This document shows positions 4,663 to 15,963 of a stretch of 24,756 nucleotides of DNA, one piece after another. Below the pieces are notes generated by a model. It was not told the origin of the DNA and made no database searches. It was given only the letters and a program-made list of their open reading frames with translations. Position 1 is the stretch's first letter. Each line of letters opens with the position of its first letter. The stretch comes from a virus. The DNA lies in the IMG/VR virus record IMGVR_UViG_3300002760_000320, positions 15,863 to 40,618 of that record, one strand, 5' to 3'. The position numbers and the translations under genes were made by a program.

Positions 4663-5549
4663 CAGATGACCTCCATGAACTCAAAAGTGAACCCGAAGTT
4701 AGATACAGCATTTGTATCCCACTGAACCTCGTTAGTCGTAAGCCTGAATCTTGACTTGTTATACAGAGAGGAAAACCCGACCGCGTTGGATCCGAGATTG
4801 GCTCGAAGTTTTGGCTGTATAGGTACAGAGTAATGATCCGGTCCAGACTCAACCGAGAAAACAGCATCAGCCGTCGCCATAACAAGCTGAACAGGACTTC
4901 CGTTTGCGGGCGCTCCTGAGTCGTATATTCCCAGATAGTCACCCTTCTTGATCGTTCCAGTCCCAGAGTCACCTGAAGCCCTCAAGCTCAAGGCTGTGCT
5001 TCCTTTGACGTTCTGGCGAACCTGACATGATGCCGTGCTTGATTCAGTTGTCAGGCTGTGATCGACAACAACAACGGTATCACTTGTCTTCGTGGTGATT
5101 TTGAATGTGCCGTTATTCTCCTCCTTGAGCGCACCGCTCACCGTGAAGAAGTCCCCGACCACTAGCCCGTCAAATATAGCCGTTCCTGCCGTTATAGTGC
5201 TACCTGAAAAACTGAGCGTGACGCTCGTTACTTGAGAGCCTGAGTCAATCCTCGTCTCACCTCTAAGATAACCGCCGTTGAATGTGCCTTGAGGCGTCTT
5301 CGCGTCAGGATCACCGAAGATGAAATTATTTTTCATTCCTTCCAGATCAAGAAAGAAAGATTGCCACTCTACAGCGTCAGATCGCTTCATGGGTGGCAGT
5401 GTTGCTCTGCCGGTCCAGTAAACCGCGTCATACTCCTGCGTTCTCTGCGCCCCGCTAAATGGCGAGCCAGACATGGCAACAGCTCTATAGAGCGTGAACG
5501 TGCTATTCGTGAAACCAACATTCGTTGGAATTGAAATGGTCTTAGGCAC
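4662..5549 (-). CDS. Distal/minor tail protein (slot of GTA g12, DUF2460-like)
   Basis: This 295-residue protein is encoded directly downstream of the tape measure gene, overlapping its end by eight bases. Its N-terminal half carries MKRSDAVEWQSFFLDLEGM and NNFIFGDPDAKTP (residues about 53-86). These resemble the part of distal/minor tail proteins in which a segment is described by length and matched against a template. The middle is Ser/Thr-rich and beta-strand-like (about residues 100-200), suggesting an inserted Ig-like or carbohydrate-binding domain; the C-terminus is strand-rich. In phages of this layout the gene after the tape measure encodes the distal tail protein that starts the tail tip. 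The DUF2460 relation is a guess from position and general form. Confidence 0.6.
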   Translation of the reverse strand: MPKTISIPTNVGFTNSTFTLYRAVAMSGSPFSGAQRTQEYDAVYWTGRATLPPMKRSDAVEWQSFFLDLEGMKNNFIFGDPDAKTPQGTFNGGYLRGETRIDSGSQVTSVTLSFSGSTITAGTAIFDGLVVGDFFTVSGALKEENNGTFKITTKTSDTVVVVDHSLTTESSTASCQVRQNVKGSTALSLRASGDSGTGTIKKGDYLGIYDSGAPANGSPVQLVMATADAVFSVESGPDHYSVPIQPKLRANLGSNAVGFSSLYNKSRFRLTTNEVQWDTNAVSNFGFTFEFMEVI

Positions 5550-7782
5550 CTAATAACCCCTTCCTGTAATTGCCGCCGCGTCGGGTGGCCTCAAGGACCG
5601 AGGATTTCGTTACCTCGCTGATTTGAGGCAGCATCCGCTGAACCTCAGCCCGAACCGTAGGAACGACCCCAGTAGAGAAGTTAAGAGACTGGTTGACGAC
5701 TATAGGCGCACCACCTCCCATCATGCTCCGCGTGTCGTTACCGTTCTTAAGCGTTCCCGCCACCTGCGGAATAAACAGCTCCGGCCCACGCTCACCGACC
5801 AAGTAAGATTTGCCTCGGCTCATAGCGCCACCACTAGCCCGAGGCGCATTGTATTGCATACCTTTGTCGCCAAATGACAGAGTTGGAAAGATGTTGCCCC
5901 CGAACACTTTATTGAGAATCTGGTTGACCACCGCCAATTGAAGGAATGTGGATATGATCTGAGACACAATATTTTTCGAGAAGTCCTTAAAGGATGAGAG
6001 AGCGTTTTCCCCCTCAAGAAGCGAATTGACGAAATCGTTAGTAAACGTCAGCGACATGGACTGGACCGCAGGTGCAAGGATGTCACCGATTGTCTCAGCG
6101 GCCTCTTCCGCCGGATCGGTCATGTCCTGCAAACCTTCCTTCATGCTGTTGAACATTTCGGATATCTCTTCCTTCGAGAGATCACCGAACACATGCTGTA
6201 TCAAGGATTGGTCTTGAGAAGCCAGAACCTCTTGGAACCGCTCAATCTGCTCCTTAACTTCACGCACTGGATCAATAGATGCTTCCGCCACTGATCGAAG
6301 GTCTTCATAAACGCTCAGGCGCTCCCGTTCGGCTTCAGCTAATGCCCGCGCCTGTCTTTCCTGCTCGGCTGCATTTGCCGCGTCAATAGTCTCTTGCTGC
6401 TCCCTCTTGATACCATTCAAGTAAAACAGAACCCGCTCATATTCCTCAACGGGTATATGATTCTTGGCCAGCGCCAGTGCGTCGAACTGTTCTTGCAACT
6501 CCTCTGCCGCTGTGACTGAATCCTCTAACGCCTTCTTCACGATAGCCTGAGCCTCGACAAGAGCCGCTGCTTGTGACGCCCTCCTACGTTCCAGCTCCGT
6601 GAAGCCTTCTTCCATCATAGTCGGTGCGAGAACACCCATACCTCCCAGCGCCGCTGATCTTCCAGATGCCCTCTCTTGCGCGGCGACGTTCGCTTTCCTT
6701 GCGTCAATCAATGCGTATAGAGCATCTTCTGTTCTCTGAGCCGCTGCCATTTCGGCTTCGTAGCCAAACCCAAAGAATGAACCCGCGCCTTCACGCTGTC
6801 GCCGGACGTTCTCAAACGCGGCATTAATTGCGTCATCAACACTTCCCACGCCGAGCATGTCAACGCCGGTCTCCTCCTGCCGCAAAGCCATTCGAACATT
6901 TTGTGGCAGCTCTCTTTGGCCCCCTGCTCTCGCGGTCTCAACCCTTATAAGCTCTGCCGTTGCAGCGGTCGCAGCGGTAATATCATCCGCCATATCCTTG
7001 AAGAATTGACCAAGCCCCGTCTGGAATAAAGCATCCCCAAGATCTTTGAACGCGATCTCCATATTCGATAGCTTTGTGGACAAGTTGTCCATCTTCGCTT
7101 CCATAGCGCCGCCGAACTGCTCGTTCATTGCCTCGGTGAGCGTTCGCATGATGATTGCAGCGCCTTCGGCTGTTTTACCGAATGTAGCAATCTCGTCTCT
7201 TGATAGATCCAGACGGCGACTGAGCATACCGAAAACATCAATGCCACGGTCGGCGATCTGGTTAAGCTCCTCCAGACCAACACCACCAGACACCGATCTC
7301 TGCGTGACCCGAACCAGAGCCTCAAAAACGCCCAACTGGTCAGTGGTCGTTGACGCTGTGTCAGCGAACGTCTGCAACGTCGCAATATTAGGCTCCAGCC
7401 CTGCACCCTTCAGGGCGATGAACGCCTTCGTAACGGTCTCAATCTGAAATGGCGTTGTCTGAGCAAAATCAAGGATTTGGCCCATAGCCTTATCACCGGC
7501 CTCAACACTGCCGAAAACCTGATTAAGGCTATCCTGTAAATCCTCGAATTCTGCCCCCACAGAGGCGATACCCTTCAAGGCACCTATGGCAGCCATGCCC
7601 GCGCCAACCGCCGCCAGCGGCGCAATTAGGCCCCTTAGCTGCCCGCCCATGGCAACAATAGGCGAACGCCCGCCAGCCGGAAACGCTGAATTGACGCTCT
7701 GCTTCGTATTCTTCAGCTCTCGCCTGAGATCTCTTGTGTCAGCTTTGATCTGAACAATTAGTTCATCTACTTCTTTGGCCAT
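5542..7782 (-). CDS. Tape measure protein
   Basis: This 746-residue protein sets tail length and is ejected with the DNA. It begins MAKEVDELIVQIKADTRDLR, with a charged N-terminal helix. Hydrophobic Ala/Gly-rich stretches around residues 45-75 follow (RGLIAPLAAVGAGMAAI), then a long helical middle with an Ala/Glu/Arg-rich coiled-coil section near residues 410-500. Near the C-terminus it has SYLVGERGPELFIP (about residue 664), a motif I recognise in many siphophage tape measures. Length is at the short end of the usual range; at roughly 0.15 nm per residue the tail would be near 110 nm, a rule-of-thumb estimate. The ATG overlaps the stop of the frameshifted chaperone by one base, consistent with coupling. 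Confidence 0.92.
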   Translation of the reverse strand: MAKEVDELIVQIKADTRDLRRELKNTKQSVNSAFPAGGRSPIVAMGGQLRGLIAPLAAVGAGMAAIGALKGIASVGAEFEDLQDSLNQVFGSVEAGDKAMGQILDFAQTTPFQIETVTKAFIALKGAGLEPNIATLQTFADTASTTTDQLGVFEALVRVTQRSVSGGVGLEELNQIADRGIDVFGMLSRRLDLSRDEIATFGKTAEGAAIIMRTLTEAMNEQFGGAMEAKMDNLSTKLSNMEIAFKDLGDALFQTGLGQFFKDMADDITAATAATAELIRVETARAGGQRELPQNVRMALRQEETGVDMLGVGSVDDAINAAFENVRRQREGAGSFFGFGYEAEMAAAQRTEDALYALIDARKANVAAQERASGRSAALGGMGVLAPTMMEEGFTELERRRASQAAALVEAQAIVKKALEDSVTAAEELQEQFDALALAKNHIPVEEYERVLFYLNGIKREQQETIDAANAAEQERQARALAEAERERLSVYEDLRSVAEASIDPVREVKEQIERFQEVLASQDQSLIQHVFGDLSKEEISEMFNSMKEGLQDMTDPAEEAAETIGDILAPAVQSMSLTFTNDFVNSLLEGENALSSFKDFSKNIVSQIISTFLQLAVVNQILNKVFGGNIFPTLSFGDKGMQYNAPRASGGAMSRGKSYLVGERGPELFIPQVAGTLKNGNDTRSMMGGGAPIVVNQSLNFSTGVVPTVRAEVQRMLPQISEVTKSSVLEATRRGGNYRKGLLGA

Positions 7783-8323
7783 TAGTCGGGATGTAACTCC
7801 ATCAGTTCCTCAAGCTCGCTCCTCGACATTGCTGATGACTCACTTTTGCCACCATTGAACTCAGAGAAGCCTGATATCGCTCTATAAATTTCCACAGGCG
7901 CCATGTCCCAGAACTCGCTTGGCTGTATGCCTATCATTCCGACACAGACCGAATAAAACCTTTCCCATGGAATAGAGTCGTCGGCCCCTGCTACTTTTTT
8001 TCAGTGTCCTCCGAGTTTGGATCGCTAAGGGTTGCCACGAGAAGTTGCGCCACAGCCGCAGAACATGCCACGATGCCTGAAGAGGCAATCATTTTCTTGA
8101 TGTCGTTGTGGGTTAAGTCCTGACCACCGCCGCGCAAAGCGTGGTACAGAACAACAGAAAGCTGACTTAGGCGAATGTCTGCATCAGCTATTTTCTGAGT
8201 CAAAGCCAGCACACCTGTGTCTAGCTCTGTCTCAATCTTAATGAGTGCGTCTACTGTCAATCGGCAAGGATGGGTTTCCCCTCCCAACTCAATCTGTATC
8301 TCGCCCTTCATCGGGTTGGTCAT
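7782..8323 (-). CDS. Tail assembly chaperone, -1 frameshift fusion product (gpGT-like)
   Basis: A ribosome starting at ATG 8323 reads 110 codons to AAA AAG TAG. A -1 slip on the heptamer at 8000-7994 lets it continue GTA GCA GGG ... for 70 further codons to TAA at 7784-7782, giving about 180 residues. The extension contains WERFYSVCVGMIGIQPSEFW and DMAPVEIYRAISGF. This matches the pattern of the GTA g10.1 / TIGR02216 tail chaperone (a Phe-Trp pair followed by a Pro-x-Glu-x-x-x-Ala helix). The second frame has no credible start of its own: a TGA closes it at 8003-8001, directly before the A-run, and the first ATG lies about 20 codons in, inside the conserved core. The sites are seen directly; that frameshifting occurs is inferred from lambda G/GT. 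Confidence 0.75.
7991..8323 (-). CDS. Tail assembly chaperone, unshifted product (gpG / GTA g10-like)
   Basis: This 110-residue protein begins MTNPMKGEIQIELGGETHPC and has the helical core of the GTA g10-type tail chaperone (LTVDALIKIETELD, ALTQKIADADIRLSQLS). In lambda such proteins coat the tape measure protein during tail assembly and are absent from mature tails. ATG 8323 is chosen because an AAGGAGAG Shine-Dalgarno lies just upstream. The gene begins inside the previous gene (35-base overlap) and ends TAG at 7993-7991. The final codons AAA AAG lie in a slippery heptamer, which is the entry point of the longer fusion product annotated separately. Confidence 0.8.
   Translation of the reverse strand: MTNPMKGEIQIELGGETHPCRLTVDALIKIETELDTGVLALTQKIADADIRLSQLSVVLYHALRGGGQDLTHNDIKKMIASSGIVACSAAVAQLLVATLSDPNSEDTEKK
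7994..8012 (-). promoter_or_regulatory. Programmed -1 frameshift site with upstream SD-like stimulator
   Basis: On the minus strand the heptamer A AAA AAG (8000-7994) lies in the zero frame of the first chaperone gene, the same as the E. coli dnaX slip sequence. The next codon is the zero-frame stop TAG. A GGAGG stretch at 8012-8008 ends seven bases before the heptamer, in the place where an internal Shine-Dalgarno stimulates -1 slippage in dnaX. All these elements are seen directly. Frameshift efficiency and any 3-prime structure were not assessed. Confidence 0.75.
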
Positions 8324-8555
8324 CTGACTCTCCTTCTAACGCCTCCGCGTCTGCGGGTGCTTCTGCTAAGTCTGTTGTAATGATTGCCAGTTCGCCGCGA
8401 TCATCCTCCTGACAGTCCAGCACATTGGCTGAAACGTCATTCACTGTGATCGTCTTAGGTGAACCAATAGAGAGGCTTAACGCCACTTCGGCCCCACGCT
8501 GGAAGCCCTCAAACAGCTTCTTGCCGTGTTTTACTGATACCTGCTTCCAAGCCAT
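8289..8555 (-). CDS. Small conserved phage protein between major tail and chaperone genes
   Basis: This 88-residue protein begins MAWKQVSVKHGKKLFEG. The N-terminal half is basic and the C-terminal third is very acidic (EAPADAEALEGESDDQPDEG). A good ACAGGAGGG ribosome site lies upstream of ATG 8555. It overlaps the chaperone gene by 35 bases in another frame. I do not recognise the family. Position suggests a tail assembly or tail terminator-related part, but that is inference only. The region has both SD and order support, so the gene is likely real. Confidence 0.7.
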   Translation of the reverse strand: MAWKQVSVKHGKKLFEGFQRGAEVALSLSIGSPKTITVNDVSANVLDCQEDDRGELAIITTDLAEAPADAEALEGESDDQPDEGRDTD

Positions 8556-8567
8556 GAGGCCCTCCTG

Positions 8568-8975
8568 TTATGCGAATGTTACCGCGCCGGACGATTCAAA
8601 AGTCACGTTGTACGTGGCCTCACCGTTGTATTCTCCGGCATACTCCAGACTGGCAACCATAAACGCGCCGGTATAGGTTCCCAGATCTGGTATCACGAAC
8701 TGATAATTATTGAAGGCTGCCGCCCCGAACTCACCGCGAAGAGAAACTTCTGCCGCCGAGTCAGTGAAGACGCCAGAGCCAGAAATCGTTATTGACTTGA
8801 TCCCTGCGCCGCCGAGCAATTCTCTAGCGTTCGCACTGTCCTTGTTGGTGATATCAACGGCCTCATCATTCTTCGTGATTGAAGACGAGCGCAATCCGCC
8901 GATAGTCGAAAAGACTTCAGGACTTGCGCCGTTTCCGTGCTTGATAAGAACGGCCTTACCCTTTTGTGCTGCCAT
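8568..8975 (-). CDS. Major tail (tube) protein, second copy
   Basis: This 135-residue protein begins MAAQKGKAVLIKHG and resembles the TP901-1 / GTA g9 type major tail protein. Typical features are TIGGLRSSSIT, a variable middle with an ITISGSGVFTD motif, VIPDLGTYTG and the C-terminal ESSGAVTF. Such proteins form stacked rings around the tape measure. The ATG has a GGAGTAAAGGAT site upstream. It is downstream of, and clearly paralogous to, the gene at 8987-9391 (by-eye identity well over half; the N-termini MAAQKG and the last ten residues nearly match). Whether both copies are in the tube, or one is a minor variant, cannot be seen. Confidence 0.85.
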   Translation of the reverse strand: MAAQKGKAVLIKHGNGASPEVFSTIGGLRSSSITKNDEAVDITNKDSANARELLGGAGIKSITISGSGVFTDSAAEVSLRGEFGAAAFNNYQFVIPDLGTYTGAFMVASLEYAGEYNGEATYNVTFESSGAVTFA

Positions 8976-8986
8976 ATCCTTTACTC

Positions 8987-9391
8987 CTATGCCGCGCTAA
9001 ATGTTACGGCACCGGATGACTCAAGCGTTATGCTATAGGTCACTTCGCCGTTAAACTCGCCAGCATATTCAAGGCTGGTGATCTGAAATGTTCCGCTATA
9101 CGTGCCAAGGTCAGGAACGATGAAGCTATATGTCTTCAGTGTCCCAGTTCCCCAGTATCCACGAATAGTCGTCTCGCTGGTCGCATCTGTGAAAATGCCA
9201 GAGCCGGAAATCGTAACCGTCTGCGTGCCACCTTGCGGTAACAACGTGCGATTGCCGCTCGAATCTTTTGTCGTGACGTCAACAGGCTCATCAGACAGTG
9301 TGATAGAGGACGAACGTAGCCCGCCTATGGTTGTCTGACTGCCGCCCACGTCGGCCTTGATTAATACTAAATTGCCTTTTTGCGCGGCCAT
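8987..9391 (-). CDS. Major tail (tube) protein, first copy
   Basis: This 134-residue protein, the upstream copy of the pair, begins MAAQKGNLVLIKADVG and shares TIGGLRSSSIT, TVTISGSGIFTD, PDLGTYSG, SLEYAGEFNGEVTYS and ESSGAVTF with the second copy. Differences cluster near residues 13-20 and 50-60, where tail-tube proteins have exposed loops. A TAGGAGAC ribosome site precedes ATG 9391. It is placed directly after the DUF3168-like gene, the usual place of the tail-tube gene. Assignment as tail tube is from family pattern and order. Confidence 0.85.
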   Translation of the reverse strand: MAAQKGNLVLIKADVGGSQTTIGGLRSSSITLSDEPVDVTTKDSSGNRTLLPQGGTQTVTISGSGIFTDATSETTIRGYWGTGTLKTYSFIVPDLGTYSGTFQITSLEYAGEFNGEVTYSITLESSGAVTFSAA

Positions 9392-15767: not shown

Positions 15768-15963
15768 CCTGATTTTCCTCGTGCAAGTTTAACAAGACGG
15801 TGAAAAACTGCTGAATAGATAAATCAAACGGGTATTTACCGCTCTCAATTTCATACGCAGCGTGAAACCTCTCATGTATGTCGCGGTTAAGACTTACTGC
15901 TCTTTGACCAGTAGCTCCAGTCCCTTGACCGGCTGGCCGTCCTCTACGTTTCTTCTCTGTCAA
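15748..15963 (-). CDS. Putative ribbon-helix-helix-like DNA-binding protein
   Basis: With TTG 15963, 71 residues begin MTEKKRRGRPAGQGTGATG. I chose this over GTG 15990 because AGGAGAGTAAA lies directly before the TTG and the region between overlaps the ribosome site. A basic arm (KKRRGRPAGQGTG) is followed by QRAVSLNRDIHERFHAAYEI, which fits the strand plus first helix of an RHH repressor (the Val-Ser-Leu-x-x-x-x strand). It is first in the operon from the central promoter, so autoregulation is plausible. Assignment is moderate to low. Confidence 0.5.
   Translation of the reverse strand: MTEKKRRGRPAGQGTGATGQRAVSLNRDIHERFHAAYEIESGKYPFDLSIQQFFTVLLNLHEENQDDTSIG

Follow-up and report, generated by a model that had tools for sequence, protein, structure and literature searches.

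A marine tailed phage with a probable lambda G/GT-type programmed -1 frameshift between its tail assembly chaperone frames

Tail assembly chaperones of many tailed phages are made in two lengths from two overlapping frames. The window analysed here is a stretch of 24,756 nucleotides from a 40.6-kb virus record (IMG/VR record IMGVR_UViG_3300002760_000320, positions 15,863 to 40,618), and the sequence comparisons indicate that it very probably carries a marine tailed-phage chaperone gene expressed by programmed -1 ribosomal frameshifting of the lambda G/GT type. That the putative frameshift is conserved across the virus relatives of this locus is well supported; the lambda-type mechanism is already known, and this example of it is new. 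We also describe a subset of GTA-type loci that may use a different slippery sequence for the homologous gene pair.

Organization of the chaperone locus

All features of the locus lie on the minus strand of the window (Table 1). The overlap of ORF1 and ORF2 sits between the tail tube and tape measure genes, with one small ORF between tail tube and ORF1, and the ATG of the tape measure gene overlaps the TAA of the extension as TAATG. The 3' end of ORF1 reads ACT GAA AAA AAG TAG on the minus strand, and the initial annotation, made from the letters alone, had placed the heptamer, the stop and the GGAGG seven bases upstream exactly to the base.

Table 1. Coordinates of the chaperone locus and its neighbours in the window
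Feature	Position	Strand	Remarks
Tail tube protein, upstream neighbour	8568..8975	-	PF06199
ORF1 (tail assembly chaperone 1)	7991..8323	-	110 aa; PF11836 Phage_TAC_11 / GTA-gp10
GGAGG, Shine-Dalgarno-like element, possible stimulator	8008..8012	-	7-nt gap (8007-8001) to heptamer
TGA, upstream closure of -1 frame	8001..8003	-	
Slippery heptamer A AAA AAG	7994..8000	-	zero frame of ORF1
Zero-frame stop TAG	7991..7993	-	abuts heptamer
-1 frame extension (ORF2)	7782..7994	-	70 codons + TAA (7784-7782); PF09550 Phage_TAC_6
Tape measure protein	5542..7782	-	746 aa; PF20155

ORF1 matches PF11836 with 68.8 bits (Pfam cut-off 27.8) and the -1 frame matches PF09550 with 37.1 bits (Pfam cut-off 23.4). The second frame had been described earlier as a TIGR02216-type chaperone; the chaperone assignment holds through PF09550, but the label itself is a distant match, as the score of 24.3 bits for TIGR02216 (the rcc01693 family) falls below the curated cut-off of 56.1. 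A sequence search of solved structures gave no convincing relative for ORF1 or ORF2.

A slip at A AAA AAG would join the two frames into a predicted fusion of 110 + 70 = 180 aa with the junction E-K-K-V-A-G, in agreement with the peptide of about 180 residues and the K-V-A-G junction first proposed for this locus. In the mechanism that we propose, most ribosomes would terminate at TAG and release the 110-aa ORF1 protein, while a minority would shift back one base on the heptamer, the lysine tRNAs on AAA and AAG re-pairing with AAA and AAA. The slipped ribosomes would then bypass TAG in the -1 frame and complete the 180-aa fusion with its PF09550 domain. By analogy with lambda, ORF1 would have a gpG-like role, its short form coating the tape measure protein, and the extension would have a T-like role, through which the long form would recruit the tail tube protein; the PF06199 protein is the probable client of the extension.

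Nowhere else in the window does an X XXY YYZ heptamer lie in the overlap of an ORF with a -1 ORF (each of 60 codons or more), and the two strands together contain AAAAAAG only three times, which argues that the layout is not due to chance. The -1 frame has no ATG, GTG or TTG between its upstream TGA and the PF09550 domain, and its first ATG (7937-7935) lies within the PF09550 match, so that the initial description of a 70-codon frame without a credible start is borne out. These observations bear directly on the alternative in which ribosomes terminate at TAG and ORF2 is then translated independently, with initiation at a non-standard or internal start. Two phage relatives do have ATG starts for ORF2 and many GTAs use an ATG or GTG that overlaps the ORF1 stop, yet a separate start would leave the conserved heptamers described below without explanation, and together with the lack of a start codon ahead of the domain this leaves the alternative only a very slight chance at the window locus.

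Two further features of the neighbourhood were observed. An 88-aa ORF at 8289-8555 of the minus strand, without a family match, shares 35 nt at its 3' end with the start of ORF1, and several relatives have a similar ORF that overlaps the ORF1 start and ends in SDDxPxxGRD. Two similar tail tube-like ORFs stand in tandem on the minus strand (8568-8975 and 8987-9391), the first of which matches PF06199.

Conservation of frame and heptamer among virus relatives

More than 100 loci were gathered from three scans of virus contigs, and removal of near-copies (joined proteins of those kept being less than 90% identical) left 62 non-redundant loci, window included. The ORF1 relatives are 46-97% identical across most of their length. 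ORF2 lies in the -1 frame in 60 of the 62 loci, and every one of these 60 has an in-frame slippery heptamer within the overlap: A AAA AAG (25), G GGA AAG (25), A AAA AAA (6), G GGA AAC (2), A AAA AAC (1) or G GGA AAT (1). The overlap and a heptamer are therefore conserved in homologues, as the initial annotation had supposed, with A AAA AAG itself in 25 of the 60, and its proposal that a lambda-like -1 slip joins two chaperone frames is supported by the layout, the domains and these heptamers.

Against the 60 observed, the heptamer rate in the remainder of ORF1 predicts 3.8. Synonymous shuffling of ORF1, a procedure that disregards the ORF2 frame, gave a mean of 12.9 heptamer loci and a maximum of 20 in 300 runs; coding in ORF2 could account for part of the excess but probably not for the whole of it, because heptamers with different encoded residues interchange. 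A tree of the 62 loci requires several switches among A AAA AAG, G GGA AAG, A AAA AAA and G GGA AAC, a pattern that fits conservation of slipperiness and not of the encoded residues. Among relatives the distance from the heptamer to the zero-frame stop downstream of it varies between 0 and more than 20 nt, and the heptamer is retained. In about half of the 60 loci exactly 15 nt separate the heptamer from the zero-frame stop; in the window the distance is 0 nt.

Both frames show coding-type evolution. The -1 frame of the window differs from that of L003 at 12/6/36 sites in codon positions 1/2/3 and from that of L004 at 15/15/35, a pattern from which we conclude that ORF2 is translated and evolves as a protein. 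With a single metagenomic virus contig as the source of the window, the two overlapping frames might represent one gene broken by an indel or an assembly error rather than programmed recoding. This explanation is refuted by the 59 other non-redundant, widely divergent contigs in which ORF2 again lies in the -1 frame and a heptamer is present, and its probability is negligible.

The frames could also be fused without any ribosomal slip if RNA polymerase slipped on the run of seven A and produced mRNAs with a changed number of A. Runs of A can make RNA polymerase slip (PMC3711429) and a few relatives have longer A runs (L038-L042, L048), but a run of seven A is rather short for such slippage, 25 of the 60 loci have G GGA AAG and no such A run at the same place, and X XXY YYZ phasing is preserved in all 60. 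We therefore regard transcriptional slippage as having a slim chance only, and prefer programmed ribosomal frameshifting for the window and its -1-frame relatives. Separately, Cellulophaga phage phi18:2 (L146, about 1471-1530) has a run of nine A followed by ORF2 in the +1/-2 frame, and either transcriptional slippage or a -2 shift may occur there.

In the two virus loci outside the -1 set, L017 and L026, there is no heptamer and ORF2 occupies the +1/-2 frame, with an ATG about a dozen codons upstream of the conserved I-D-W; they appear to express ORF2 from this ATG, and the fusion thus seems dispensable in some members. They form one clade in the tree of 62 loci (support 99/92); the likeliest history, among others that the insecure rooting of the tree allows, is that frameshifting was lost once. 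Homologues that have a start but no slippery site, which the initial annotation had named as evidence against a slip, do therefore exist, both here and among many GTAs, and show that both modes of expression are open to the gene pair. They do not refute frameshifting at the window, because the ORF2 of the window lacks a start.

A tblastn search with ORF1 against annotated phages gave a single weak match. In more distant phages, reading of the frames by eye identified in-frame C CCA AAG in Pseudoalteromonas phage SL25 and Alteromonas phage PB15, G GGA AAA in the isolate ctUhy936 and A AAA AAG in Idiomarinaceae phage 1N2-2. The records of SL25, PB15 and 1N2-2 give two hypothetical proteins or omit ORF2, and that of ctUhy936 likewise has two genes or no ORF2; none has a join, and the concern that fusions of this kind are missed in annotation is warranted for these phages.

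Candidate stimulators of slippage

The GGAGG of the window could form an anti-Shine-Dalgarno duplex of -9.5 kcal/mol, a strength matched by 58 of 2000 synonymous resamples of the window alone, and as a stimulator at this locus it is suggestive only. Across the family, anti-Shine-Dalgarno complementarity peaks 5-10 nt upstream of the heptamer, with a mean best value of -5.8 kcal/mol versus -2.6 kcal/mol in ORF1 (Wilcoxon 2e-9 before codon control). After synonymous resampling the observed -5.8 compares with -5.2 +/- 0.34 kcal/mol; the strong family-wide enrichment was set aside, as it is mostly gone under this control, and the signal is mostly one of codon use, because acidic Glu/Asp codons are located there. 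Downstream of the heptamer of the window there is no significant or strong stem (z -0.6 to -1.1), and the family has mean folding z values of -0.8 to -1.7. The stop that abuts the heptamer could add a pause. The description of the site as DnaX-like thus holds for the heptamer; family-wide the Shine-Dalgarno-like element mostly reflects acidic codons, and a dnaX-like stem is not apparent in the window.

GTA loci

The chaperone frames of the window had been described as GTA-type. The tape measure protein of 746 aa, compared with about 220-270 aa in GTA loci, and the place of the window in a virus record identify the locus as that of a phage and not of a GTA. A scan of genome contigs with the ORF2 alignment returned no matches, and a scan with a GTA-like ORF2 returned two loci, which were the basis for genome surveys in which PF09550 was sought in alphaproteobacterial genomes.

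One large GTA family, which we place by inference in the Rhodobacteraceae, had a PF09550 match in 90 of 120 genomes. ORF2 had its own start in all 30 loci of this family that were read, 20-31 codons upstream of the P-x-x-F-W motif, most frequently as ATGA over the ORF1 stop (15/30). Annotation as two genes is therefore right for this Rhodobacteraceae-like family, and the earlier suggestion that GTA annotation overlooks a fusion can apply only to the C CCT TTC/C CCT TTT subset described below. The ORF2 start is also ATGA in one Hellea and one Caulobacterales locus. In another order, heptamer-free loci have the ORF2 start 19-24 codons ahead of the P-x-x-F-W motif, in most cases as a GTG or ATG placed on the ORF1 stop.

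In 15 alphaproteobacterial GTA-type loci, the first usable ORF2 start is only 4-12 codons before the P-x-x-F-W motif, so that a protein started there would lose the first helix (P-F-P-W). These 15 have an in-frame C CCT TTC (L154, L156, L157, L164, L167, L174, L180-L182 and L235-L239) or, once, C CCT TTT (L153), 12-15 nt upstream of the ORF1 stop. Three further loci, L158, L166 and L177, have G GGA AAG. Two of the genomes with C CCT TTC or C CCT TTT, L240 and L242, were examined across the whole cluster and are of GTA type, with DUF2460, a PF09931 hub protein and a protein of 1323-1327 aa with GTA_TIM and Rcc01698_C. The L240 cluster also contains an acyl-CoA dehydrogenase gene with three Pfam domains (L240:3426-4625), situated between the head genes and a 406-aa ORF at the position of the portal.

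We consider it rather likely that this GTA subset frameshifts its chaperone at C CCU UUC (once C CCU UUU), 12-15 nt before the g10 stop, that related GTAs initiate the second protein separately, and that the pair has alternated between the two modes. C CCU UUC is absent among the heptamers of the phage set, and the tree of GTA-type loci has weak support and long branches. A codon-use estimate of 3e-12 for C CCT TTC was discarded as evidence because the loci had been selected for carrying the heptamer and are mutually related. In the titles and passages of open-access papers that were covered, we found no report of a frameshift in the chaperone genes of GTAs. Should this GTA subset be real, the second chaperone of its members would be predicted too short, without the first helix.

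Discussion

The putative frameshift is ordinary in kind and useful for annotation: gene callers miss the long chaperone in this phage family. Homologous pairs with frameshifting, pairs with separate starts (L017, L026) and both modes among GTAs would provide a clean test of why a fixed ratio of short to long chaperone is needed in tails, and the GTA subset is the part that deserves pursuit.

Comparison with known systems

The slippery site G GGA AAG, which is lambda's own, is shared by 25 of the 60 virus loci, whereas the window has A AAA AAG directly before the stop. In lambda G/GT a short chaperone and a longer -1 frameshifted form are encoded between the tail tube and tape measure genes, and the arrangement here is the same; the window pair differs in being assigned by profile to PF11836/PF09550. 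The frameshift mechanism is established in lambda and many tailed phages (PMC5009743; Xu et al. 2004, as cited in PMC5009743 and PMC3711429).

By their description, the phiCbK-like Caulobacter phages, which are alphaproteobacterial phages, resemble the window locus in having GTA-related tail genes and a -1 chaperone pair (gp93/gp94), with -1 sites A AAA AAC / G GGA AAC (PMC3556154). RcGTA-type loci share the two Pfam families of the window and also their order ahead of the tape measure gene. In PMC11409702, g10 of RcGTA is tail chaperone 1 and g10.5 is tail chaperone 2, and the g10.1 of the initial annotation may be another name for g10.5. The Rhodobacteraceae-like GTAs differ from the window in the separate start of ORF2, most often ATGA, and in their far shorter tape measure protein. 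Finally, E. coli dnaX shares with the window A AAA AAG and an upstream Shine-Dalgarno-like stretch (PMC3711429), but its shifted product is shorter and a stem-loop stimulates the shift (PMC3711429, PMC5009743), whereas the window locus would give a longer product and has no clear stem.
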